Shown: one piece after another, positions 17,271 to 39,103 of the stretch
Layout of the letters: each line of letters starts with the position of its first letter
Numbering within the stretch: the stretch's first letter is position 1
Source of the DNA: Acidimicrobiaceae bacterium
Lineage (GTDB): Bacteria > Actinomycetota > Acidimicrobiia > Acidimicrobiales > RAAP-2
Assembly: GCA_003170315.1 (NCBI GenBank)
Contig: PNAH01000010.1
Span: forward strand, 101,543 to 165,542
Length of the DNA: 64,000 bases
Direction: 5' to 3'
The notes under the pieces: model-generated
The model's database searches: none
Told to the model about the DNA's origin: nothing
The model's input: only the letters and a program-made list of their open reading frames with translations
Position numbers and translations under genes: made by a program

Positions 17271-18227
17271 CTACTTGATCGCCAGCGCGTTCGCCGGTGA
17301 GCCGATGCCCCCCGTGACGTTCAGTGGGGCGCTGGCCAGAAGGAACTCGTAGACCCCGTCGACGGCGCAGTCGTCCGCCAGATCCTCCAGATTCCATAGT
17401 TCGCCGATGGCGAAACCGAGCAGACCAATCAGCACGCGGTGCAAGAAGCCGTACGGTCGAGCGGCCTCAGAGAAGTCCGGGGGCCAGACCTCGGTCGCGA
17501 ATGAATCCGAGACGACGGCGGCGGCACCACTGTCCCAGAGGTACCGGGCCATCGCTTCGGTGTGTTCGATTCCCGGCGCACGCAGGTCCGAGGCGAGCGA
17601 GCGTCGCGCCTCGTCTCCCAGTTCCCGATAGTTGGCGAGGAATCCAGTGCGCACCACGATCGCACATCCCTCGCTGAACGAGAGGCCCGCGGCCTTGCGC
17701 GCGGCTTCGAGGTCCGCTACTGTAATCGAGCCATCAGGCGAAGATGAGAGTTCTCCCTTCGCGTGGTCGCGCGCGACGTCCAACAAGACGCCTCGCGTCA
17801 CGACACCGTGACGCGACCAGTGATCGATCGTATTGAATCCTCCGCTGAGGACGTCGTCGACCGATCGACCATTGTAAAAGACGCCGGGTCGAGCGGCGAC
17901 ATGCGCGAGTGAGTCCCATTGGCTTGCAATCTGAGGAAAGTAGTCGTCGAGAACGTCGTCGAGGTCCTCGACGGCCCCGGTTCCGCCGCGCAACACCCGG
18001 TGACGCGCCGGCATCCTCGTCGAATCGAGCGGAGGGTCGAAGGCCCAGACCGGCGTGTCGAGGCCGAACGTCGCTCCACGACGCACCAGACCGACGGCGT
18101 CGCGCACTACGTCGGACGTGATCAGATTGAGTCGACCAATCGAGTCGTCGGCGCCGTAGAGGCCCCACGCGGTCCCCGCCCCGGAGAGGTCACGGGGAAG
18201 TTCGTCATACGTCGGACTCGTGGCCAC
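17271..18227 (-). CDS. Cyclase family protein (kynurenine formamidase-like)
   Basis: DDYFPQIASQWDSLAHVA, FNTIDHWSRHGVVTRGVLLDVAR, GCAIVVRTGF, DSFATEVWPPD. Confidence 0.82.
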   Translation of the reverse strand: MATSPTYDELPRDLSGAGTAWGLYGADDSIGRLNLITSDVVRDAVGLVRRGATFGLDTPVWAFDPPLDSTRMPARHRVLRGGTGAVEDLDDVLDDYFPQIASQWDSLAHVAARPGVFYNGRSVDDVLSGGFNTIDHWSRHGVVTRGVLLDVARDHAKGELSSSPDGSITVADLEAARKAAGLSFSEGCAIVVRTGFLANYRELGDEARRSLASDLRAPGIEHTEAMARYLWDSGAAAVVSDSFATEVWPPDFSEAARPYGFLHRVLIGLLGFAIGELWNLEDLADDCAVDGVYEFLLASAPLNVTGGIGSPANALAIK

Positions 18228-24374: not shown

Positions 24375-25760
24375 TTAATCCTTGGTTGTACTCGGAGTAT
24401 GGATCAACTTCTTGTTCACGAACTCTTCGATGCCGTAGGGACCGAGTTCGCGACCCACGCCGGATCGCTTCGTGCCACCGAATGGCAACTCAGCGCCGCC
24501 GCCCTCCGGTGTGTTGATCCACACCATGCCCGTGTCGAGGCGGTCGGCCACGTCGAGCGCCAACTTCTCGTTGGCACTGTAGACACTCGCGCCGAGGCCG
24601 TATGGCGTGTCGTTCGCTAGGGTCACGGCTTCGTCGGCGTTAGCGACACGGTAAACCACGGCGACTGGTCCAAAAAGTTCCTCACGGAACGCGCGCATCG
24701 CGGGCACTACGTCAGTAAGCACACTCGGTTCGAAGAACGCACCCGGTCCGCTCACTCGACTTCCGCCGGTGCGCACGGTCGCGCCCTTGCTAACGGCGTC
24801 ATCAACTTGCTCTTGCAAGTTCCTCGCGGCCTGCTCGGATGACAGTGGGCCGTACGAGGTGTCCGGGTGAGTCGGGTCGCCAGTCTTGCGGGACGCCATC
24901 GCGTTGGTGAACTGTTCGACGAAATCGTCGTAGATGGCGTCGGCCACGATAAAGCGCTTTGATGCGTTACAGGCCTGACCGCCATTCTCCATGCGCGCGC
25001 CGACCGCCTCGCCAACCACTTTTGCTAGATCGTCAGTGTCGAGGACAATGAACGGATCTGACCCACCGAGCTCAAGGACGACCTTCTTCAAGTTCTTTCC
25101 CGCAATGGCCGCGACGGCGGTTCCTGCGCGTTCACTTCCGGTCACGGACACGCCACAAATACGAGGGTCGGCAATAATCTCGGCGACCTGTTCGTTCGTG
25201 GCGAAAATATTGATATACACATCGGCCGGAAGTCCAGCGTCATGGAAGATCTTTTCCATCGCGAGCGCCGACTCGGGACACTGTGGCGCGTGCTTGAGCA
25301 AGATGGTATTGCCAATCATGATGTTGGGTGCGGCGAACCGAGCAACCTGGTAGTACGGGTAGTTCCACGGCATGATGCCCAGTAGCGCGCCGACTGGAGC
25401 TTTGCGAACCCACGCGGTGCCGCCCGTGTTGGATGCGAGGGGTGCGTCGGCCAGCAGGGTCGGCCCCTGGTCGGCGTAGTACCGGTAAATATCGACCACA
25501 AAACTAATTTCGCCCAGTGCTTCGGCGGTCGTCTTACCCATTTCGCGCGTGATGACTGCGGCAAGCGTGTCGGCCCGATCACGATAGAGATCGGCCACTC
25601 GATGCAATATCTTCGCGCGTTCTGTCTTCGCCGTGGTACGCCATGATTGGTAGCTCTCGTGAACGCGAGCGAGGACGTCGGCAATCGTGGCGTCTGTCGC
25701 AGTCGGGAATTCACTCAGGGTCTGGCCGGTGGCGGGATTAACGACTTGGTACAGGCTCAT
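24375..25760 (-). CDS. NAD(P)-dependent aldehyde dehydrogenase (succinate-semialdehyde dehydrogenase-like)
   Basis: GIMPWNYPYYQVARFAAPNIMIGNTILLKHAPQCPESA, VVLELGGSDPFIVLDTDDL, NGGQACNASKRFIV. Confidence 0.92.
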   Translation of the reverse strand: MSLYQVVNPATGQTLSEFPTATDATIADVLARVHESYQSWRTTAKTERAKILHRVADLYRDRADTLAAVITREMGKTTAEALGEISFVVDIYRYYADQGPTLLADAPLASNTGGTAWVRKAPVGALLGIMPWNYPYYQVARFAAPNIMIGNTILLKHAPQCPESALAMEKIFHDAGLPADVYINIFATNEQVAEIIADPRICGVSVTGSERAGTAVAAIAGKNLKKVVLELGGSDPFIVLDTDDLAKVVGEAVGARMENGGQACNASKRFIVADAIYDDFVEQFTNAMASRKTGDPTHPDTSYGPLSSEQAARNLQEQVDDAVSKGATVRTGGSRVSGPGAFFEPSVLTDVVPAMRAFREELFGPVAVVYRVANADEAVTLANDTPYGLGASVYSANEKLALDVADRLDTGMVWINTPEGGGAELPFGGTKRSGVGRELGPYGIEEFVNKKLIHTPSTTKD

Positions 25761-28109: not shown

Positions 28110-28451
28110 TCACGCCGCGCCGCTCGTAGGCTGTTGACAATCGAGCCGCCACTTTGCACGGTGGAGAACCTGAATGTCGGTGAACTCGAAGAATCCCCAC
28201 GGCCCGATTTCAACCCCAAGTCCGCTCCACTTGGTACCACCAAACGACTGATGAGGCGCCAGGGCAAGGTGGGCGTTCACCCAAGCGGTGCCAAAGTGAG
28301 CCTTGGCAAAGGCGTCCATCGCAGCGTCGAGTTCCGAGCGCGAGCACTCAGGCGCCTCCGCATAAACATCGCCCGACGCAGGATTGACCACACCGAAACT
28401 CCCGCTCGTGGTGAGTGCATCACCGCCAACCGTCATCGTGAACTGAGACAT
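28110..28451 (-). pseudogene. Aldehyde dehydrogenase remnant: N-terminal ~50 aa joined in frame to the C-terminal ~60 aa, catalytic core absent
   Basis: GSFGVVNPASGDVYAEAPECSRSELDAAMDAFAKA followed directly by HFGTAWVNAHLALAPHQSFGGTKWSGLGVEIGPWGFFEFTDIQVLH; no catalytic Cys or LGG motif. Confidence 0.85.
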
Positions 28452-28540: not shown

Positions 28541-28942
28541 CTATGACACCTCGAGAGCCGCGGTCACATCTATTTCAACCTCCACGCCCACCCTGAATCC
28601 GATCCCGGGCAAAGTCGTTCGCGCCGGCCGATGATCCCCGAACATCTCGGCATAGGTGGCGTCCATCTCCGCGAAAGCAGACGGATCACGCAAGTAAACC
28701 ATGGCCCGAAGTACCTGTGTGAGGTCACTGCCGACGCCACTGAGGACGATCTCGAGGTTTTGAATCGCTCTGCGCGTCTGCGCCGCGACCCCGGCAGCCA
28801 TCTCACCGCTCACCGGGTCAATGCCGAGTTGCCCCGAGCAATAGACAATCCCACGATGCACCGTCGCGTGAACGTACGCGCCTTTCGGTATTGGCAAACC
28901 CGCTACTAAAACCCGCTCAACTGACCCGATGCTCTCGTTCAT
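28541..28942 (-). CDS. RidA/YjgF family enamine/imine deaminase
   Basis: HATVHRGIVYCSGQLGIDPVSGEMAAGVAAQTRRAIQNLEIVLSGVGSDLTQVLRAMVYLRD...RPARTTLPGIGF...VEIDVTAAL. Confidence 0.92.
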   Translation of the reverse strand: MNESIGSVERVLVAGLPIPKGAYVHATVHRGIVYCSGQLGIDPVSGEMAAGVAAQTRRAIQNLEIVLSGVGSDLTQVLRAMVYLRDPSAFAEMDATYAEMFGDHRPARTTLPGIGFRVGVEVEIDVTAALEVS

Positions 28943-29144
28943 ATTTCCTCCTCTCGAAGTGCCCCCATGTCCCCACCAAAAGCCCTTTACCTCAATCAAT
29001 ACGACCTTCATGTTTCGCCGTTGCAACCTCATTCGCGCTTCGACCGCACTATTCGAAATCCTCATTCGACTTCCACCTGCCCTCTGGTCAGACCTCTTCG
29101 TAACTAACGAGCCGCCTGCCAGGCGCCGCCAAGGGGCCTTCTCG

Positions 29145-30311
29145 TCAAGGGGTTGGGAGTGCTGCGACAAGGCGTTCTATATCGGTCCAGTCGTTGAACA
29201 GATGACAAGAGATTCGCAGACGTCCATCGCGCACGGCACAAGAGACGTTTTTTTCGGCGAGCGCCGCGCGCACACGCTCCGCATCCCCGTCCGGAACGTC
29301 GGCTGAGACAATTCCCGACCGCTCACCATCACGAGTCGAGCTCGACACCGGGTAGCCTTTTTCTTCTAGCGCTTCAGCCAATCCCGCACTAACCTCGAGA
29401 ACCCAGTCGTTGATGAGTTGGACGCCGGCGCCAGTGAAGAGATCAATGCTCGCCCCGAGCCCGTACATACCCGCCAAATTCGGAACGCTATTTTCATAGC
29501 GCCGTGCATCCGAGGCGTATCTTAAGTTGTACTGCAACTGCTTCTCGAGAAATGGGGCGTCTTCGATGTTCTTCCACCCCGGGGCGGAGACCTCGAGCAC
29601 CTCTCGCAGCTTCGGAGCTACATAGCAAAAGCCGATCCCGTACCCTGAACAGAGACTCTTATAGCCATGCGCCGCCACCAAATCAGCTCCCAGGGAGCCG
29701 ACATCGACAGTGAGCGCCCCGACAGCCTGCACCACGTCGGCTAATAGCAATGAACCATTCGAGTGGCAGAGTTTGGAGATCTCCTCGATCGGAGCTCTGA
29801 ATCCGTGAAAGCAGTTTACGAGGCTTATACAGACAACACGAGTACGGTCCGACAGTAAGGCTTCGACATCTTCGACATCGAAGCGATGGCGACCCAGGTC
29901 TTCGATAAATCGAACGATTACCCCCCGCTTCTCGAGCGCAAGCCAAGGGTAGACACCGGCCGGAAACTCTTGGTCATAGACCACGACTTCGTCCCCGACA
30001 TTCCAGTCGAGCCCGAGCGACACGAGGCTGAGGCCTTCAACGGTACTGTGCAGAAGTGCCACATCACGCGGATCGCACCCTATAAGGGTGCCCACCTTGC
30101 TTCGAACTTCCGCCGCCCCTTCCCACCAATGCCCTACTCCTTTCGCACCAGCGCCCATCATCATCCCCTCGAGGAATTCCTTCTGGGCATTCACGTTCGT
30201 CACCGGCAACGGTCCATACGTGGCGGTATTGAACCAGGTCTTATTCTCAGTAACCGGAAACTCCTCCTGGCGCAGCCTGTGCATCGCTTGATTCTGATGT
30301 TTGGAACTCAT
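29145..30311 (-). CDS. PLP-dependent aminotransferase class V (isopenicillin N epimerase/cysteine desulfurase-like)
   Basis: FPVTENKTWFNTATYGPLP, ALLHSTVEGLSLVSLGLDWNVGDEVVVYDQEFPAGVYPWLAL, LLLADVVQAVGALTVDVGSLGADLVAAHGYKSLCSGYGIGF. Confidence 0.88.
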   Translation of the reverse strand: MSSKHQNQAMHRLRQEEFPVTENKTWFNTATYGPLPVTNVNAQKEFLEGMMMGAGAKGVGHWWEGAAEVRSKVGTLIGCDPRDVALLHSTVEGLSLVSLGLDWNVGDEVVVYDQEFPAGVYPWLALEKRGVIVRFIEDLGRHRFDVEDVEALLSDRTRVVCISLVNCFHGFRAPIEEISKLCHSNGSLLLADVVQAVGALTVDVGSLGADLVAAHGYKSLCSGYGIGFCYVAPKLREVLEVSAPGWKNIEDAPFLEKQLQYNLRYASDARRYENSVPNLAGMYGLGASIDLFTGAGVQLINDWVLEVSAGLAEALEEKGYPVSSSTRDGERSGIVSADVPDGDAERVRAALAEKNVSCAVRDGRLRISCHLFNDWTDIERLVAALPTP

Positions 30312-30335
30312 GGATCATTCCTCCTTGATCTGGAC
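30271..30335. repeat. Tandem duplication copy 1, spanning the aminotransferase start codon and RBS
   Basis: 56/65 positions identical to 30339-30403, offset 68 nt. Confidence 0.85.
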
Positions 30336-30379
30336 CGACGCAGCCTTTGCATCGATCGATTCTGATTTTTGGAACTCAT
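30308..30379 (-). CDS. Candidate 23-aa upstream ORF made by the duplicated gene start, ATGA-coupled to the aminotransferase
   Basis: ATG AGT TCC AAA AAT CAG AAT CGA TCG ATG CAA AGG CTG CGT CGG TCC AGA TCA AGG AGG AAT GAT CCA TGA; stop overlaps the ATG at 30311. Confidence 0.5.
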   Translation of the reverse strand: MSSKNQNRSMQRLRRSRSRRNDP

Positions 30380-30403
30380 GGATTCTTCCGCCTTAATCGG
30401 GAC
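30339..30403. repeat. Tandem duplication copy 2, carrying a second start codon and RBS-like site
   Basis: cgcagcctttgcatcgatcgattctgatttttggaactcatggat... Confidence 0.85.
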
Positions 30404-30461
30404 CCATCACGCTTCACCTGTCGGTGTGACGGCCCTCCGATGCGAGCACGCACCGCCCCAG

Positions 30462-31658
30462 TCATTTCGTCGAGCCACTACTCCACCTTCGAATCGCAAA
30501 GCGCTCCACCCGCTCCGGCACCACAGGAAAACCATTTCCAGGGCGTGACGGAACGCTGATACAGCCGTCCAGTTCAATGTCGAACGTCGGTTCTACGAGA
30601 TCCTCCTCATAGAAGATGCGAGCCGGTGACATATCAGCGTGCATCGTGAATCCCGGAAGCGAAGCGAGGGCAAGGTTGAAGCCCCGGCCGATACCCGTCT
30701 CCAACGTTCCGCCACACCACGCGGGAACTTCGAGATCAACGCAGAGATCGTGAACCGCAAAACATTCCAGGAGTCCACCGAGTCTCGGGGGCTTAATGTT
30801 AACGATGCGACCTGCCCCTAAGTGCAAGGCCGTTCTCGTCGTGTTGTAACCAGTGGCACTTTCATCAAGGCAGATAGGCGTTTGCAAAGTGGACTGGAGC
30901 GTTGACAACTCCATGAGCGCGTCGCCCGGCAGCGGCTGCTCAATCATGAGCAAGTCGAGGTCATCGAGCTCTTTCCACGGGCCCGATTCGACCGTGTAAC
31001 CGCAGTTTGCGTCGACCGATAGCGGAGTCCCCGGGAAAGCATTCTTGACCGCCGAGACGACGGAGACATCCCAGCCAGGGGCAATTTTCAACTTGATCCG
31101 GCTGAATCCTTCCTGCAACCGAAGAGCGATCTCATCAAGCAGAAGTTCGGTGTTGTCATAAATGGAGAAACTCTCTCCGACAGGAATCCTCGCTCGGACT
31201 CCGCCCCACATCAAGGCGAGCGGCACACCCATCTTTTCCGAGGCAATCGCCCACGACGCGGACTCGGCGGCATGTTTAGCGTAGTGCTGACCGAGAAGGT
31301 CCTCCCACGTTTTGGCGAGTTGACTCGGCCCACTAAATGTTCGAGCCATAACTCCGGGCAGGATCAGGTCCGCCAAGACCGACCAGGTACCTTCAGGAGT
31401 ATCAGTACCGTAAACGGGCCGCTCCGGTGCCGGTGCCTCACCCCATCCCACCGTTCCGTCATCGTCTTCCAGCCTGACCAGGATCGCTCGCTTCATGCCA
31501 GTTGACGCGCCATAAGCTGATTTGAAGGTCCGACACATTGGCAACGACAGCATGAAGAGATCTGCTCGGCGAAGTCGTATCGGAGTTTCAATTGCTTTCG
31601 CCCGCTCAAACGAGCCAGGACTCATGGGGTCCCCACCGGTGTTCGCTGAAGTTTGCAT
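30462..31658 (-). CDS. Enolase superfamily (mandelate racemase/muconate lactonizing; OSBS/N-acylamino acid racemase-like)
   Basis: FKSAYGASTGMKRAILVRLEDDDGTVGWGEAPAPERPVY, RIKLKIAPGWD, PLSVDANCGYTVES, IEQPLPGDALMELSTLQSTLQTPICLDES, NIKPPRLGGLLE. Confidence 0.9.
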   Translation of the reverse strand: MQTSANTGGDPMSPGSFERAKAIETPIRLRRADLFMLSLPMCRTFKSAYGASTGMKRAILVRLEDDDGTVGWGEAPAPERPVYGTDTPEGTWSVLADLILPGVMARTFSGPSQLAKTWEDLLGQHYAKHAAESASWAIASEKMGVPLALMWGGVRARIPVGESFSIYDNTELLLDEIALRLQEGFSRIKLKIAPGWDVSVVSAVKNAFPGTPLSVDANCGYTVESGPWKELDDLDLLMIEQPLPGDALMELSTLQSTLQTPICLDESATGYNTTRTALHLGAGRIVNIKPPRLGGLLECFAVHDLCVDLEVPAWCGGTLETGIGRGFNLALASLPGFTMHADMSPARIFYEEDLVEPTFDIELDGCISVPSRPGNGFPVVPERVERFAIRRWSSGSTK

Positions 31659-31666
31659 CTTGCCCC

Positions 31667-33043
31667 CTATAGCATTTCTCGATATTCAGCAATCTCCCAG
31701 TCACTCACGTGCCCGAGATAGCGTTGCCAATCAAAGCGCAGCAACTCTGTATAGGTCGTTGAGAAAACGACTCCCAGTGCCGCCCCCAGCTCACCGTCGC
31801 TTGCAAGAGCGTCCAATGCCTCGACAAGGCTCATCGGAAGACGATCAAAGCGGACGTCGTTGAAGAGGTTCCCGTCGGTTGGATCACCGGGATCAAGACC
31901 TCTCCTGACGCCGTCAACTCCCGCTGCAACCATGGCCGCCGCGAGAAGGTAGGGGTTGGCATCCGAACTCCCCAACCGATTCTCAATCCTGGTGTTTCTG
32001 CCATCGGGCAGGGCCCGCGCCAGAGCTGTTCGATTCTCGACACCCCAAGCGATCCGAACGGGTGCCCAGGTGCCCGGTCGGTATCTCTTGTAGGCCGTCA
32101 CCGTTGGAGCAGCTAATGCAGTCATGCCTCGCGAGTGAAGCAATTGCCCGGCGATGTAGCTTCTGGCAATCTCTGATAGACCGTGCGGCGCTGAGGGGTC
32201 GAAGAAGAGATTCTCTCCGTCAGGGCTCAAGGCCGATTGGTGCACGTGATAGCCACTCGGCGGCGTCTCGTCGCGATTGGTCGGCTTCGCCATAAAGGTC
32301 GCCCTTAGGCCCAGTGAAGACGCAACCTCCTTGATCGCAATCTTGAGCGCGACGACGTGGTCAATGGCCCCGACACCGGATCGCGGCTCGAGATTCACTT
32401 CGAATTGCCCGGCACCGTGCTCGCTGAAGATCTCGTACAGCGGTATCCCCATCTTGCTAGCCGTGTCCTGAAGCGCATCGACGAACTCTTGGGCCTGCCC
32501 TAGCGCGTGGATGGAGAACCAGGACTGCATGCCATGGATCGTGTTGAATCCATCATTGCTCGGCTCAGGCTGAAAGACGTAGAACTCAAGTTCGTTGCCA
32601 AATACGGGCTCCAAGCCAATAGAGCGGGCATCGTCCAACACTCGACGAAGCACAGACCTCGGCGTTGCCACCACGCTGCCCGCCTGGTCGTAGAGATCGG
32701 TAAGCACGTGTGCCGTATCCGGCGTCCAGGGAAGTGCGGTAAAGGTCGATGGGTCTAAGATAAGGACACCATTCCTATATCCGATGTCTTTACCGTATTC
32801 GGTCTCATTCGGCGAGTGCGTCTCCCAGAGATTGCACGCCAGAAGCGGAATCGCGAACGGGTGCCCTTCGGAGAGAGCGCGCTCGAATCGTTCGACGGGA
32901 ATCACTTTTCCGCGTGGCACGCCGTACATGTCGGTCACGACAAGACGTACCTTACGGATGCCCTCATCACTGATTCGCTGAAGCACTCGGGCCCTTAGCT
33001 TCGCCGTATCCTCCTCGACGAATGAAGCCTTCTCAGTGTTCAT
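31667..33043 (-). CDS. Glutamine synthetase-like gamma-glutamyl ligase (GlnA-like/PuuA-like)
   Basis: VTDMYGVPRGKVIPVERF, GNELEFYVFQPEP, SGYHVHQSALSPDGENLFFDPSAPHGLSEIARSYIAGQLLH, NRLGSSDANPYLLAAAMVAAGVDGVRRGL. Confidence 0.92.
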   Translation of the reverse strand: MNTEKASFVEEDTAKLRARVLQRISDEGIRKVRLVVTDMYGVPRGKVIPVERFERALSEGHPFAIPLLACNLWETHSPNETEYGKDIGYRNGVLILDPSTFTALPWTPDTAHVLTDLYDQAGSVVATPRSVLRRVLDDARSIGLEPVFGNELEFYVFQPEPSNDGFNTIHGMQSWFSIHALGQAQEFVDALQDTASKMGIPLYEIFSEHGAGQFEVNLEPRSGVGAIDHVVALKIAIKEVASSLGLRATFMAKPTNRDETPPSGYHVHQSALSPDGENLFFDPSAPHGLSEIARSYIAGQLLHSRGMTALAAPTVTAYKRYRPGTWAPVRIAWGVENRTALARALPDGRNTRIENRLGSSDANPYLLAAAMVAAGVDGVRRGLDPGDPTDGNLFNDVRFDRLPMSLVEALDALASDGELGAALGVVFSTTYTELLRFDWQRYLGHVSDWEIAEYREML

Positions 33044-33254
33044 ATCGCTCCAATACTTAACGCGTCACGTACCTCGCCGACGCTCAAATGGCTAAAGCGA
33101 GAGCCGCACACGACACGGCCGGACGGACCACTGACTTCGCTCATCGCGCACGCCCACCAAGGACCCCTGAAATTAGCAATCTGGCCCGCGTCGCGCTGGC
33201 TGCGCGTCGCCGCCTTGGCCCTCGCGAAACTGAGCACGGTTTGAGTGGCAAGAG

Positions 33255-34013
33255 TCAACTCGGGTCCGATGGCACTTCCTCAACGCCCTGTGCAGCGAGG
33301 GCGGCACTCACAGCGCGCGCGGTAGCATCAATGTGAACCCGCATCACCGCGCTGGCTCCTGGAGCGTCACGCGCATCGAGGCAGTCAATGAGTTGCCCAT
33401 GGCACTCGACTGATTGTCTTCTACGGTCACTTGTAGATTTGAGTAGATCCAACCCTGGCGCCAACTTGACGCGAATGTCTTGTACGGCGTCGATTAGATA
33501 GGCGTTTCGACTTGCTTTCGCAATGATCTGATGGAGTGCCACATCAATCGCACGAAACCGGTCACGTTCCACCCTTGGCTCGCGCAGCTCCTCCTCGTGC
33601 AGCAGGCGGAGCCGAGAAAGTTCGCTTTCACTTATTCTTTCGGCGGCCAACGCAGCGACAAGCGGTTCCACCGCCGTTCGGTATTCGAACAACTGCCGCA
33701 GATCGGCGGCTCTGCCGGCAAGCCGATCCATGACAACATCGAGTTCTGGGTCCAAAACGAATGCGCCTCCATTGCGCCCCCTTTTCATCCGAATGTATTT
33801 GTGATCCTCAAGCCAGCGCAGCCCCTCGCGCACAGCCATACGATTCACGCCAAGTTGGGTGCAGAGTTCCATTTCGGTGGGCAGGCGCTCCCCGGGCATA
33901 AACTCATGGAGTCTGATGGCCGTCAGGATGAGATCAGCGACTTGCTCTCCCAGCCGATAACGCAGCGGTTGCACAGCGGCGAGGTGGCTCAAGTCAGGCA
34001 TCCTGTCGCTCAC
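33255..34013 (-). CDS. GntR/FadR family transcriptional regulator
   Basis: ADLILTAIRLHEFMPGERLPTEMELCTQLGVNRMAVREGLRWLEDHKYIRMKRGRNGGAFV plus FCD-like C-terminal half. Confidence 0.9.
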   Translation of the reverse strand: MSDRMPDLSHLAAVQPLRYRLGEQVADLILTAIRLHEFMPGERLPTEMELCTQLGVNRMAVREGLRWLEDHKYIRMKRGRNGGAFVLDPELDVVMDRLAGRAADLRQLFEYRTAVEPLVAALAAERISESELSRLRLLHEEELREPRVERDRFRAIDVALHQIIAKASRNAYLIDAVQDIRVKLAPGLDLLKSTSDRRRQSVECHGQLIDCLDARDAPGASAVMRVHIDATARAVSAALAAQGVEEVPSDPS

Positions 34014-34053
34014 GAAAGGAGCCTTTCCAAAACCACTGCGACGCGACGACCGC

Positions 34054-34728
34054 TCATAACGTTGCGCGCCCCTCAACAACCCTTCTTTCGGTCGAATCCA
34101 GAAAGACCAGGTCGAAAAGTGAGTTATCTGACGAATGTAATTGGGTAGCAGCCATCACTACATCACTCATTCGAAAGGTCCAAAGCCGATTCCCTTCATT
34201 ACTGCTATAGAGCGCGATGGCTCCCTCGTTGTCGATAGCCGCGAGATTCGCCGGTCCGCCAAGTTTTGAGTGGGCAATCTGCATCGATTCATCCATGGGA
34301 ACCCCCGCGGCGACGAGGTCCTCGAACATCAAGAATCCAACCTCGCTGTCGGCTGCTCCAACACATCGGTCGGCATACGCTGGTCGATACTCCATCTCAT
34401 TAATAAATCGCCCATTGTGAACGAAAGCCATGGACTGTTCTTCGTCCAGGAACGGCTGCGTATCCTCGATTTGAACCGTCGACAACTTACTCGGTCGTCG
34501 AAAATGTATTAGGAAATGTGTTGACTCCACGTCGTTCAGAAAGTTGGCATCTTTCGCATCATCGGCTAGTCGGCCCACGTTTCTGTAACGTCGCACCTTG
34601 CCCGAATCGAGCCACGCGACGCCCCAACCAAATTTGGCCGAGCCGTAATACTCCATTTTACGACCCAGTTCCTTGAATTCCAAGAAACGTCTTGGCGTTT
34701 TTGATCTCACGACCAAGATCTCACACAT
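34054..34728 (-). CDS. Stand-alone class II glutamine amidotransferase (Ntn hydrolase) domain protein
   Basis: Begins MCEIL (Cys2 nucleophile); FGWGVAWLDSGKVRRYRNVGR, STHFLIHFRRPSKLSTVQIEDTQPFLDEEQSMAFVHNGRFIN, DSEVGFLMFEDL. Confidence 0.85.
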   Translation of the reverse strand: MCEILVVRSKTPRRFLEFKELGRKMEYYGSAKFGWGVAWLDSGKVRRYRNVGRLADDAKDANFLNDVESTHFLIHFRRPSKLSTVQIEDTQPFLDEEQSMAFVHNGRFINEMEYRPAYADRCVGAADSEVGFLMFEDLVAAGVPMDESMQIAHSKLGGPANLAAIDNEGAIALYSSNEGNRLWTFRMSDVVMAATQLHSSDNSLFDLVFLDSTERRVVEGRATL

Positions 34729-34751
34729 GGCGGGCCTTTCCTTCCTTATAG

Positions 34752-36227
34752 CTACTGATCACTGACATAGACGTTCTTTATCTCCGTATAGTCCCAAAGC
34801 CCATCGAGACCTTGCTCCTTGCCGAGTCCGCTTCGTCGGTAACCGCCAAACGGAGCTTGAATGTACGAACTCGAGTCGGAGTTGATGCTCAAAAGTCCGG
34901 TACGAATCCCGCGTGCCACACGAAGCGCTCGACCAATATCGCGCGTCCACAGCGAGCCACTGAGACCGTACTGAGTCCCATTGGCCAAAGCAATCGCTTC
35001 TTCCTCGTCATCGAAAGGAAGAATGGTGGCTACCGGTCCGAATATTTCCTCTGTTGCAATCTCGCTATCGGGAGTCGCGCCGGTAACAATGGTCGGCGCT
35101 ATCGCATTCCCTGCCTCGAGGCCTGCGGCGCTCACCACGTTACCTCCGCACACAAGCTCGGCGCCGCCGGCCCTCGAACGATCAAGGAAACCGAGAACGC
35201 GATCGCGCTGATCCGAGGAGATCAGACTTCCTAGAGTCATGGTCGGATCCATCGGATCGCCTTGGCGAACTTTTGACGCATTCTTGGCCAGCAATTCAAC
35301 GAACTGTTCCACGACCGGACGCTCGACGATCATGCGACTTCGGGAGCAACAATCCTGACCCGAATTCGCAAAAACCGCGCCCATTGCCGATTTAGCGACA
35401 TCGGCCAGTGGCGCGTCGGCGAACACGACATTCGGAGATTTCCCGCCGAGTTCGAGACTCACGCGCTTTATCCCCGCAGCGGCTCTAGTCAAAATGTCGA
35501 CACCGGTGGTGGTGCTGCCAGTGAAACTAATCTTCGCAACGTCAACGTGCGCCACCAATTGTTGACCAAGTTCTCGAGTCGATCCCGTGAGGACGTTAAT
35601 CACTCCGGCGGGTACACCGGCTTCTTCGCATATTCGCGCAAGCCTCAAAGTCGTGAGCGGGGTAGGTGGTGCCGGCTTCAGAACGACGGAGTTGCCCGCC
35701 GCGAGCGCGGGCGCGGCCTTCTTTGCAGCAATAGCAATTGGTCCGTTCCAGGGCATGATGAGGGCACAAACTCCGATTGGCTCTCGTAATGTGAAGTCGA
35801 GTCCGCTTGCGTTGACAGGAATGGTCTGGCCGGTAAGGTGATTCACCGCCGATCCGTAAAACCGAAAATACCTCGCAGCCGCTCGAACCTCGGCATGGCA
35901 ATCCACGATGGGCTTTCCAGAACAGAGCGATTCTAGATGCGCAAGTTCTTCCTCATTCGATTCGATAGCCGCCGCGACTGCAACGAGAATCTCGCCACGT
36001 TGTGGCGGCGGGAGCTTCCGCCAACGACCCGTTTCAAACGTCCTTCGGGCAACCTGAACCGCCAAGGAAACATCGGCCTCGCACGCCTCGGCTACTTGAG
36101 CAACAATTGCGCCGTTCGCAGGATTTCGAACGATATAGGTAGCTCTACTGGCGGAATCCAAGTCGGCACCGTCGATCCGCAATTGAGCTTCGATCACATC
36201 GCGCACTTGCTTAGTAGAACTGGTCAT
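34752..36227 (-). CDS. Aldehyde dehydrogenase
   Basis: GVCALIMPWNGPIAIAAKKAAPALAAGNSVVLKPAP, VSLELGGKSPNVVFADAPL, NSGQDCCSRSRMIVER, PFGGYRRSGLGKEQG. Confidence 0.93.
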   Translation of the reverse strand: MTSSTKQVRDVIEAQLRIDGADLDSASRATYIVRNPANGAIVAQVAEACEADVSLAVQVARRTFETGRWRKLPPPQRGEILVAVAAAIESNEEELAHLESLCSGKPIVDCHAEVRAAARYFRFYGSAVNHLTGQTIPVNASGLDFTLREPIGVCALIMPWNGPIAIAAKKAAPALAAGNSVVLKPAPPTPLTTLRLARICEEAGVPAGVINVLTGSTRELGQQLVAHVDVAKISFTGSTTTGVDILTRAAAGIKRVSLELGGKSPNVVFADAPLADVAKSAMGAVFANSGQDCCSRSRMIVERPVVEQFVELLAKNASKVRQGDPMDPTMTLGSLISSDQRDRVLGFLDRSRAGGAELVCGGNVVSAAGLEAGNAIAPTIVTGATPDSEIATEEIFGPVATILPFDDEEEAIALANGTQYGLSGSLWTRDIGRALRVARGIRTGLLSINSDSSSYIQAPFGGYRRSGLGKEQGLDGLWDYTEIKNVYVSDQ

Positions 36228-37006
36228 ACAGCGGTATACCCTCCGTCCACGACAAAGAATGCACCCGTGATCCAACTGGAGTCATCGGAGGCAAGGAACA
36301 GCGCCATCTTCGCGATGTCTTCTGGCTGACCCCATCGACCAAGCGGCACGTGGCCCTCAACTGCTCGAACGTATTCGTCCGTGAACGGTCCAGCTAATGG
36401 TGTCATGATCGCGCCGGGAAAGATACAGTTACACCGGATCTTTTCAGGAGCGTGGAACACTGCGAGGGTCCGAGTCATCGCAGCCACGCCACCTTTGGCC
36501 GCGGTATAAGCGTCCGACGCACCGGACCCGACGCGCAGAGCAGCGATGCTCGAGACGTTGATGATCACTCCGCCGCCGACCTTCCGCATTTCTGGAATCG
36601 CATATTTGCAGCCCAAATATGTTCCCTTTAAGTTCACATCGATGGTCCGATCCCAGATGTTCTCTTCAAGGAGTGGCGATGGCGCGTCGGTGAACCCCGG
36701 TCTGTAGTTCCCTTGGGCTGAAAACCAGAGACCAGCGTTATTGTAGAGAACATCGAGTCGACCAAATTTCTCTGAGGCCAATTGAACTGCGGCTTGCACT
36801 TGAGTCGCGTCCGACACGTCACACAACGCGAACGCAGCCGCCGCTCCCGACTTGATGAGTTCGTTTGTAACTTCTTTTCCCGTTTCGATATTCACGTCCG
36901 CAACAACAACGGAAGCCCCTTCCGACGCGAACAACCGAGCGGCAGCCGCTCCCTGGCCACTGCCGGCGCCGGTAATTAGTGCCACTTGATTCTCAAGTTT
37001 TGCCAT
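36224..37006 (-). CDS. SDR family dehydrogenase
   Basis: VALITGAGSGQGAAAARLFASEGASVVVAD, YNNAGLWFSAQG, YTAAKGGVAAMTRTLAV; stop overlaps the downstream ALDH start. Confidence 0.92.
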   Translation of the reverse strand: MAKLENQVALITGAGSGQGAAAARLFASEGASVVVADVNIETGKEVTNELIKSGAAAAFALCDVSDATQVQAAVQLASEKFGRLDVLYNNAGLWFSAQGNYRPGFTDAPSPLLEENIWDRTIDVNLKGTYLGCKYAIPEMRKVGGGVIINVSSIAALRVGSGASDAYTAAKGGVAAMTRTLAVFHAPEKIRCNCIFPGAIMTPLAGPFTDEYVRAVEGHVPLGRWGQPEDIAKMALFLASDDSSWITGAFFVVDGGYTAV

Positions 37007-37624: not shown

Positions 37625-39103
37625 ATGACAACGGTGAATAAAGAGGAGCACGAGCTCAGAAGACACTCGGTTCCATTTCTTGGAGTATTAGCCCAATCGA
37701 CTGGGCACATCGGGCCTAGCGCGGGGATCGCGCTCTATGTCGCCTATATATTTTCAGTGGGCGGACAAACCTCGTGGTTAACCTGGGCGTTCACAACCGT
37801 AATCATGCTCTTTGTGGCTATCGCCATTTCCCATTTTGCTCGGCGTATGTCCAGCACAGGCGACCTCTACGGGTTCGCCAACAAGGGCGGTGGGTCGGGG
37901 CTCGGCATTGTTACTGCCTGGTCCCAGCTTCTGTTTGGGGCAACCGTAACGGGCGGTGGCTCAATCATCTTCGGCATTTACGTGGCGGATCTTCTTGTGG
38001 CCGCACACGTGCCTAACAATCGAGGAATGATTTTACTGTGGTGCGTACTCCTCATAGTCGTCGCGAACTACCTAACCTACCGTGATGTTCGTCTCACAGC
38101 GCGATTCATGCTGTATGTAGAGGCACTATCGCTCGCCGCCATTTTCCTGCTGTTGGTTGTCACTCTGTTTCGCCACCATGGACCTATCATCGATAGCCAA
38201 CAGTTCAACTTTACCGGGTTTTCGTTTCATACCTTGCTGTTGGGCATGGCCATCGTCGTATTCGCGTTCTCGGGATTCGAATCATGCAGCGTTTTCGGCC
38301 AAGAGGCAAAGGATCCGCTGCGCACAATCCCAAGGTCACTAGTGGGCAGCGTCGCAATATGCGGTGTGTTATTTGTCATCGCCGCGTACATCGTAGTTCT
38401 CGGATTTCATGGGACCAAGTACAACTTGGCAACATCCAGCAACCCCTTGGCAGACCTTTCGATTATCAACGGCTGGGGACCATTCCAGTACGTGATCGAT
38501 GCTGGAGTCGCGATTAGCATATTTTCAGTAGCGGTAGCTGCCACGAACTCCACTTCGCGGCTTATGTTTACGCTGAGTAGGGAGCGATTATTCCCCGCTG
38601 CATTTGCTCGAGTAAGTAAGCGGCACCTTACTCCAGTGGTCGGGATAGTGGCCTTGGCCGCCCTCGACATAGTCATACTCCTAATTCTGGAGATTGCTAA
38701 CAGGGTCAATGACACGTGGTTTAACTTCATCTCTGTCTTCGGTGGATACGGTGCGATTATTGCTTACATTTTCATTTGTGTGGCGGCTTTGGGCTATCTG
38801 CGGAAAATTGGAAAACTCAATCCGGTCAACGCTTTGGCTAGTCTGATCGCTTTAGCGGGGCTGGCTTACACCATCTATGCGAACTTTGTCCCGACGTTAG
38901 CGCCGCCTCTCGACTACCTTCTCGACGTTTTCTGCGGGACTGTGGTCGCGGTCGGAATCGTATGGAGCGTCCTCGTCGTTCGGCACTCCCCGATCGTGGA
39001 CCGAGTCGGTACTTCCGTTGATGAAGACACCCAGGATGCACTGCTCGAAGAGAAGGCCGCCGAACTTGGACAGGGTCCTACGGCCAATTCGCAATCGAGT
39101 TAG
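37625..39103 (+). CDS. APC superfamily amino acid/amine permease
   Basis: SVPFLGVLAQSTGHIGPSAGIALYVAYIFSVGGQTSWLTWAF, FAFSGFESCSVFGQEAKDPLRTIPRSLVGSV, NSTSRLMFTLSRERLFP. Confidence 0.9.
   Translation: MTTVNKEEHELRRHSVPFLGVLAQSTGHIGPSAGIALYVAYIFSVGGQTSWLTWAFTTVIMLFVAIAISHFARRMSSTGDLYGFANKGGGSGLGIVTAWSQLLFGATVTGGGSIIFGIYVADLLVAAHVPNNRGMILLWCVLLIVVANYLTYRDVRLTARFMLYVEALSLAAIFLLLVVTLFRHHGPIIDSQQFNFTGFSFHTLLLGMAIVVFAFSGFESCSVFGQEAKDPLRTIPRSLVGSVAICGVLFVIAAYIVVLGFHGTKYNLATSSNPLADLSIINGWGPFQYVIDAGVAISIFSVAVAATNSTSRLMFTLSRERLFPAAFARVSKRHLTPVVGIVALAALDIVILLILEIANRVNDTWFNFISVFGGYGAIIAYIFICVAALGYLRKIGKLNPVNALASLIALAGLAYTIYANFVPTLAPPLDYLLDVFCGTVVAVGIVWSVLVVRHSPIVDRVGTSVDEDTQDALLEEKAAELGQGPTANSQSS

Follow-up and report, generated by a model that had tools for sequence, protein, structure and literature searches.

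A tandem duplication of an aminotransferase gene start and its overlapping leader frame, most likely a by-product

Introduction

In bacteria, short open reading frames (ORFs) ahead of metabolic genes are familiar from attenuator leader peptides of the trpL type. Short ORFs can also act without any peptide function: nonsense ORFs with an internal strong Shine-Dalgarno (SD) site near the target AUG raised expression in E. coli about 5-20-fold, and the synthetic versions worked best when they carried both a start and a stop codon (PMC13255528). Likewise, overlapping stop/start pairs are usually coupled, as was the case for 13 of the 14 that were tested (PMC6728339). In the literature collection that we searched, no direct precedent for a tandemly duplicated ribosome-binding site came up. 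Here we describe such a duplication at the start of an aminotransferase gene, found in a window of 64,000 nucleotides (the whole stretch of DNA that was analysed) from an Acidimicrobiaceae bacterium, together with the short leader ORF that it contains.

Results

Gene context and relatives

The gene whose start is duplicated and the gene that precedes it have the same orientation:

29145 to 30311, minus strand: class-V aminotransferase / cysteine-desulfurase-like PLP enzyme, 388 aa (Pfam PF00266, E=7.7e-42)
30462 to 31658, minus strand: enolase-superfamily gene (MR_MLE, o-succinylbenzoate-synthase-like; PF13378, E=9.1e-36; TIGR01928, 254.8 bits against a cut-off of 200.65)

When the aminotransferase was compared with the NCBIfam models, none reached its cut-off. 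The enolase-superfamily gene lies upstream and ends 82 nt ahead of the leader ATG and 150 nt ahead of the aminotransferase start. Both genes stand in a same-strand series formed by a GntR/FCD regulator, a glutamine-synthetase-like (GS-like) enzyme, the enolase-superfamily enzyme, the aminotransferase and a Rid-family protein. A wider cluster (28541-36275, minus strand) additionally holds a class-II amidotransferase and an aldehyde dehydrogenase (ALDH). Parts of it have counterparts in two MAGs, one from the Streptosporangiaceae (L004) and one from the Chloroflexi (L002), and it has the look of an uncharacterised, mobile pathway for amines or amino acids. At 28110-28451 (minus strand), a 113-aa ALDH remnant consists of an N-terminal stretch followed only by the C-terminal Pfam part (profile positions 409-459 of 461). 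This points to the loss of a large internal segment; the window also has a full-length ALDH at 24375-25760.

The nearest relative found for the aminotransferase was that of the Streptosporangiaceae MAG (69% identity). There the order is regulator, GS-like enzyme, enolase-superfamily enzyme, permease and aminotransferase, the shared proteins are 63-70% identical and in the same order, and 8 nt separate the permease stop from the start of the aminotransferase. This APC-type permease (3431-4981 in L004) is missing at the corresponding position in the window, whose own APC permease (37625-39103) is only 27% identical to it. The duplication was absent from the aminotransferase start of the Streptosporangiaceae MAG and from the Chloroflexi MAG (48% identity), and a homologous leader was not found in the relatives searched, these two included. 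Conservation was further searched at the DNA and protein levels in 61 relatives, in samples of the order, the phylum and the class (about 400 genomes apiece), and in 172 genomes of the family. In none of these searches did a relative of the aminotransferase exceed about 37% identity. Specifically, the best other matches in the order sample were 35-37% identical, the class and phylum samples gave no match at E<=1e-80, and no close homologue occurred among the 171 further species of the family to which this genome belongs. Judged from these comparisons, the gene is probably accessory and horizontally acquired.

The tandem repeat

The two copies of the repeated unit are:

30337 to 30404, minus strand: upstream copy of the 68-nt unit, with the SD AAGGCGG, an ATG and 14 codons
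30269 to 30336, minus strand: downstream copy, with the SD AAGGAGG, the credible true start of the aminotransferase and its first 14 codons

The repeat finder and TRF reported a tandem direct repeat at 30271-30336 / 30339-30404 (period 68, 86% matches, 0 indels, TRF score 205), and pairwise comparison over the clean 68-nt unit gave 58/68 identical positions with 10 substitutions and no indels. Read on the minus strand, GGTCCCGATTAAGGCGGAAGAATCCATGAGTTCC... is followed immediately by GGTCCAGATCAAGGAGGAATGATCCATGAGTTCC...; the copies are contiguous with nothing in between, as in a simple tandem duplication, and unit and period are both 68. Both have ATGAGTTCCAAA and some 14 codons, along with an SD-like site that reads AAGGCGG in the upstream copy and AAGGAGG in the downstream copy. 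This agrees with an earlier note on this DNA, which had described two 65-nt copies (56/65 identical, offset 68 nt; essentially an equal count), each with an RBS-like site, a start codon and about 14 codons. In 304 kb of this genome (genome sampling comprised twelve 20-kb stretches) no other tandem repeat with a period of at least 30 nt occurred outside a low-complexity array, and the repeated sequence is single-copy in the genome. The repeat is therefore real and not a chance similarity, and the duplication of the aminotransferase initiation region is an ordinary tandem micro-duplication.

Elsewhere in the assembly, at 16806-16879 of L043 (G000:C25:1-20000), an N-terminal fragment resembling RecA (ATGGCAACCGACGACCGCGAGAAGGCT...AAGGGCTC) continues into NN, and a second, similar recA start follows about 480 nt later (~17279-17360). 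That arrangement is probably a scaffold-join or contig-end artefact of this assembly.

The leader ORF

Translation of the upstream copy gave one short frame:

30308 to 30379, minus strand: leader ORF, 23 codons, MSSKNQNRSMQRLRRSRSRRNDP followed by the stop; its last codons hold the aminotransferase SD and its TGA overlaps the aminotransferase ATG (ATGA)

The frame runs from 30379 to 30308, out of frame with the aminotransferase, and the ATGA overlap occupies 30311-30308. The earlier note was right that the upstream copy forms an open frame ending in a TGA that overlaps the gene's ATG. Two features expected of coupled pairs are present, namely a stop that overlaps or lies near the downstream start, and an SD for that start within the upstream ORF (AAGGAGG in leader codons 18-20, -12.4 kcal/mol). 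The upstream SD, AAGGCGG, reached a duplex energy of -6.6 kcal/mol. For comparison, 196 ATG-started long ORFs sampled in this genome had a median of -5.8; only 3% of them had an SD as strong as that of the aminotransferase, while the leader SD, close to the genome average, surpassed 62% of genes in strength and was equalled by 20% of random sites. The downstream ATG is a credible true start, since homology to the Streptosporangiaceae protein begins at residue 7 and an SD of this strength is so infrequent. Translation of the leader appears plausible from the SD data, which do not require it, and the leader is possibly a weak coupling element that would modestly feed ribosomes to the aminotransferase.

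Seven of the 23 leader residues are arginines. Codons 17-20 read AGA TCA AGG AGG and overlap the second SD region, so three of the seven arginines arise because that region is read as codons. Between the copies, four codon differences are nonsynonymous (N/H, R/Q, S/A, Q/H) and one is synonymous, a ratio that gives no sign of purifying selection on the leader peptide but has low power over 14 codons. No single relevant amino acid is encoded by a run of codons in the leader, no terminator-like site was found in 29900-30700, where an attenuation leader would have a terminator hairpin downstream, and the locus had no Rfam match.

We then asked how readily chance supplies this layout by simulating all tandem duplications of 40-129 nt around the aminotransferase start, and by mutating the downstream copy with 10 random substitutions as a model of neutral decay. 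The exact 4-nt ATGA overlap occurred in 33% of the simulated duplications, and the start was kept with the frame open to the ATGA in 57% of the decay simulations. With a period of 2 mod 3 and a gene that begins ATGA, the upstream frame must meet the TGA in the real start. An open leader frame and an ATGA overlap thus come cheaply from duplication. The layout does permit translational coupling, as the earlier note had proposed, but its word "preserving" is too strong for an overlap that arises automatically.

Folding prediction placed the aminotransferase SD in a loop:

30313 to 30330, minus strand: predicted 5-bp hairpin, GATCA-AGGAGGAA-TGATC, with the aminotransferase SD in the loop

The upstream copy keeps 4 bp of this hairpin, with one compensatory change from C-G to T-A, and a 4-bp stem with such a double change arose in 2.1% of neutral simulations. 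We take this as a faint hint of RNA-level selection, too weak to rely on given that the comparison was post hoc and uncorrected for multiple looks.

Discussion

The leader ORF is most likely a by-product of duplication, with no sign of a functional new peptide. We consider it fairly probable that a single slippage-type event accounts for the locus as a whole, with a functional downstream copy, a drifted upstream copy, a non-functional peptide and possibly modest coupling. In this scheme, replication slippage would have copied a 68-nt stretch that included the aminotransferase SD and start codon as well as its first ~14 codons; this origin is our inference, as is the choice of the ancestral copy. 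The downstream copy would have stayed the functional start and the upstream copy would have drifted, as its 10 differences in 68 nt and weaker SD suggest, remaining open only through inherited coding sequence and by running into the ATG-A of the real start. Low or moderate translation of the leader is possible, and ribosomes terminating on it would be released atop the real SD and ATG, modestly adding to or coupling aminotransferase translation, while the peptide itself would be a non-functional by-product. A contiguous, indel-free 68-nt repeat is as expected of one tandem duplication, and the 4:1 ratio of nonsynonymous to synonymous differences matches the neutral expectation. The two SD duplex energies, the 33% and 57% from the simulations, the lack of the duplication in the Streptosporangiaceae relative, and the published findings on nonsense ORFs and overlapping pairs also speak for this reading. 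Counted against the by-product reading are the lack of any stop, frameshift or start loss in the leader at 15% divergence (expected in 57% of neutral cases), a leader SD that is still genome-average, and the compensatory change that keeps the SD-loop hairpin (2.1% of simulations).

Could the two copies instead be one gene start from two related strains, whose contig ends overlapped by 68 nt and were joined end to end? The genome is MAG-like (36 contigs, 94.5% complete, 3.44% contamination), a recA start fragment elsewhere in the scaffolds runs into NN before the full recA start, and a length of 68 nt is comparable to assembler overlaps. Nevertheless, the window is without any N, and copies that match at 86%, with nonsynonymous differences in excess and the upstream SD the weaker, do not resemble two functional orthologues. 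Genes on both sides are equally identical to their Streptosporangiaceae counterparts (68.8, 69.7, 68.8%) and similar in GC3, although two related strains would give the same picture. We regard such an artefact as improbable. A duplicated DNA or RNA regulatory site, with the ORF irrelevant, is very improbable in our view: the predicted hairpin of 5 bp, whose loop displays the SD and whose counterpart in the other copy carries one compensatory change, would suit an SD-presenting structure, but short stems of this kind are common by chance. For an operator of the nearby GntR/FCD regulator, no TNGTNNNACNA FadR/FCD-type motif was found in 30001-30600, and neither a sigma-70-like promoter nor an Rfam family was detected. 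An RNA family, a promoter or terminator and a GntR operator were all tried as explanations, and all these searches came back empty. The suggestion that the leader is a regulatory peptide or a new Arg-rich microprotein, the latter already raised in the earlier note, we find scarcely credible. The frame is open, its SD is plausible and arginine makes up 7 of its 23 residues; on the other side stand the excess of nonsynonymous differences, the three arginines encoded by AGA/AGG at or beside the second SD, a leader SD weaker than the gene's own, the missing run of one relevant amino acid's codons, terminator and Rfam match, and an occurrence in one genome only.

It is also conceivable, though in our judgement unlikely, that the duplication was selected as an expression element, in which the leader loads ribosomes and termination-reinitiation at the ATGA raises or couples aminotransferase translation, perhaps replacing the coupling present in relatives where the aminotransferase directly follows another gene. 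In having an internal strong SD and an ATGA, the leader ORF fits both the boosters of PMC13255528 and the coupled pairs of PMC6728339. The Streptosporangiaceae gene lies 8 nt after its permease whereas 150 nt precede the gene here, and the leader SD is average for the genome. Yet the aminotransferase has an SD that already ranks within the top 3% and shows no obvious need of help, one in three such duplications gives the layout by chance, the leader has the weaker of the two SDs, and the genomes searched yielded no relative that could show conservation. That the locus is a natural, one-step, frame-shifted ribosome-loading leader kept for boosting translation, and so a natural counterpart of the synthetic nfORF booster, seems to us more doubtful still.

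If the leader truly loads ribosomes, one slippage event would be enough to create a coupled upstream ORF, which, if true, would offer a simple route to short bacterial ORFs and 4-nt overlaps. If it does not, the case shows that duplicating a gene start yields open short frames and ATGA overlaps at no cost, and that these are no evidence of a microprotein.

Comparison with known systems

Like the attenuator leaders of the trpL type, the leader described here is a short ORF preceding a metabolic gene; unlike them, it has neither a terminator-like site nor a run of regulatory codons. With overlapping ATGA pairs that undergo termination-reinitiation (PMC6728339) it shares the 4-nt overlap and an SD inside the upstream frame, but here a 23-codon duplicate of the aminotransferase start stands in place of a functional upstream gene, and coupling is putative. 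As for HESP/nfORF (PMC13255528), the nfORF was built synthetically and its expression measured in E. coli, whereas the present leader is natural, derives from a tandem duplication and is known from its sequence; in both, a short frame-shifted ORF lies just upstream of the gene, the gene's strong SD sits beside the stop of that ORF, and peptide function is dispensable.
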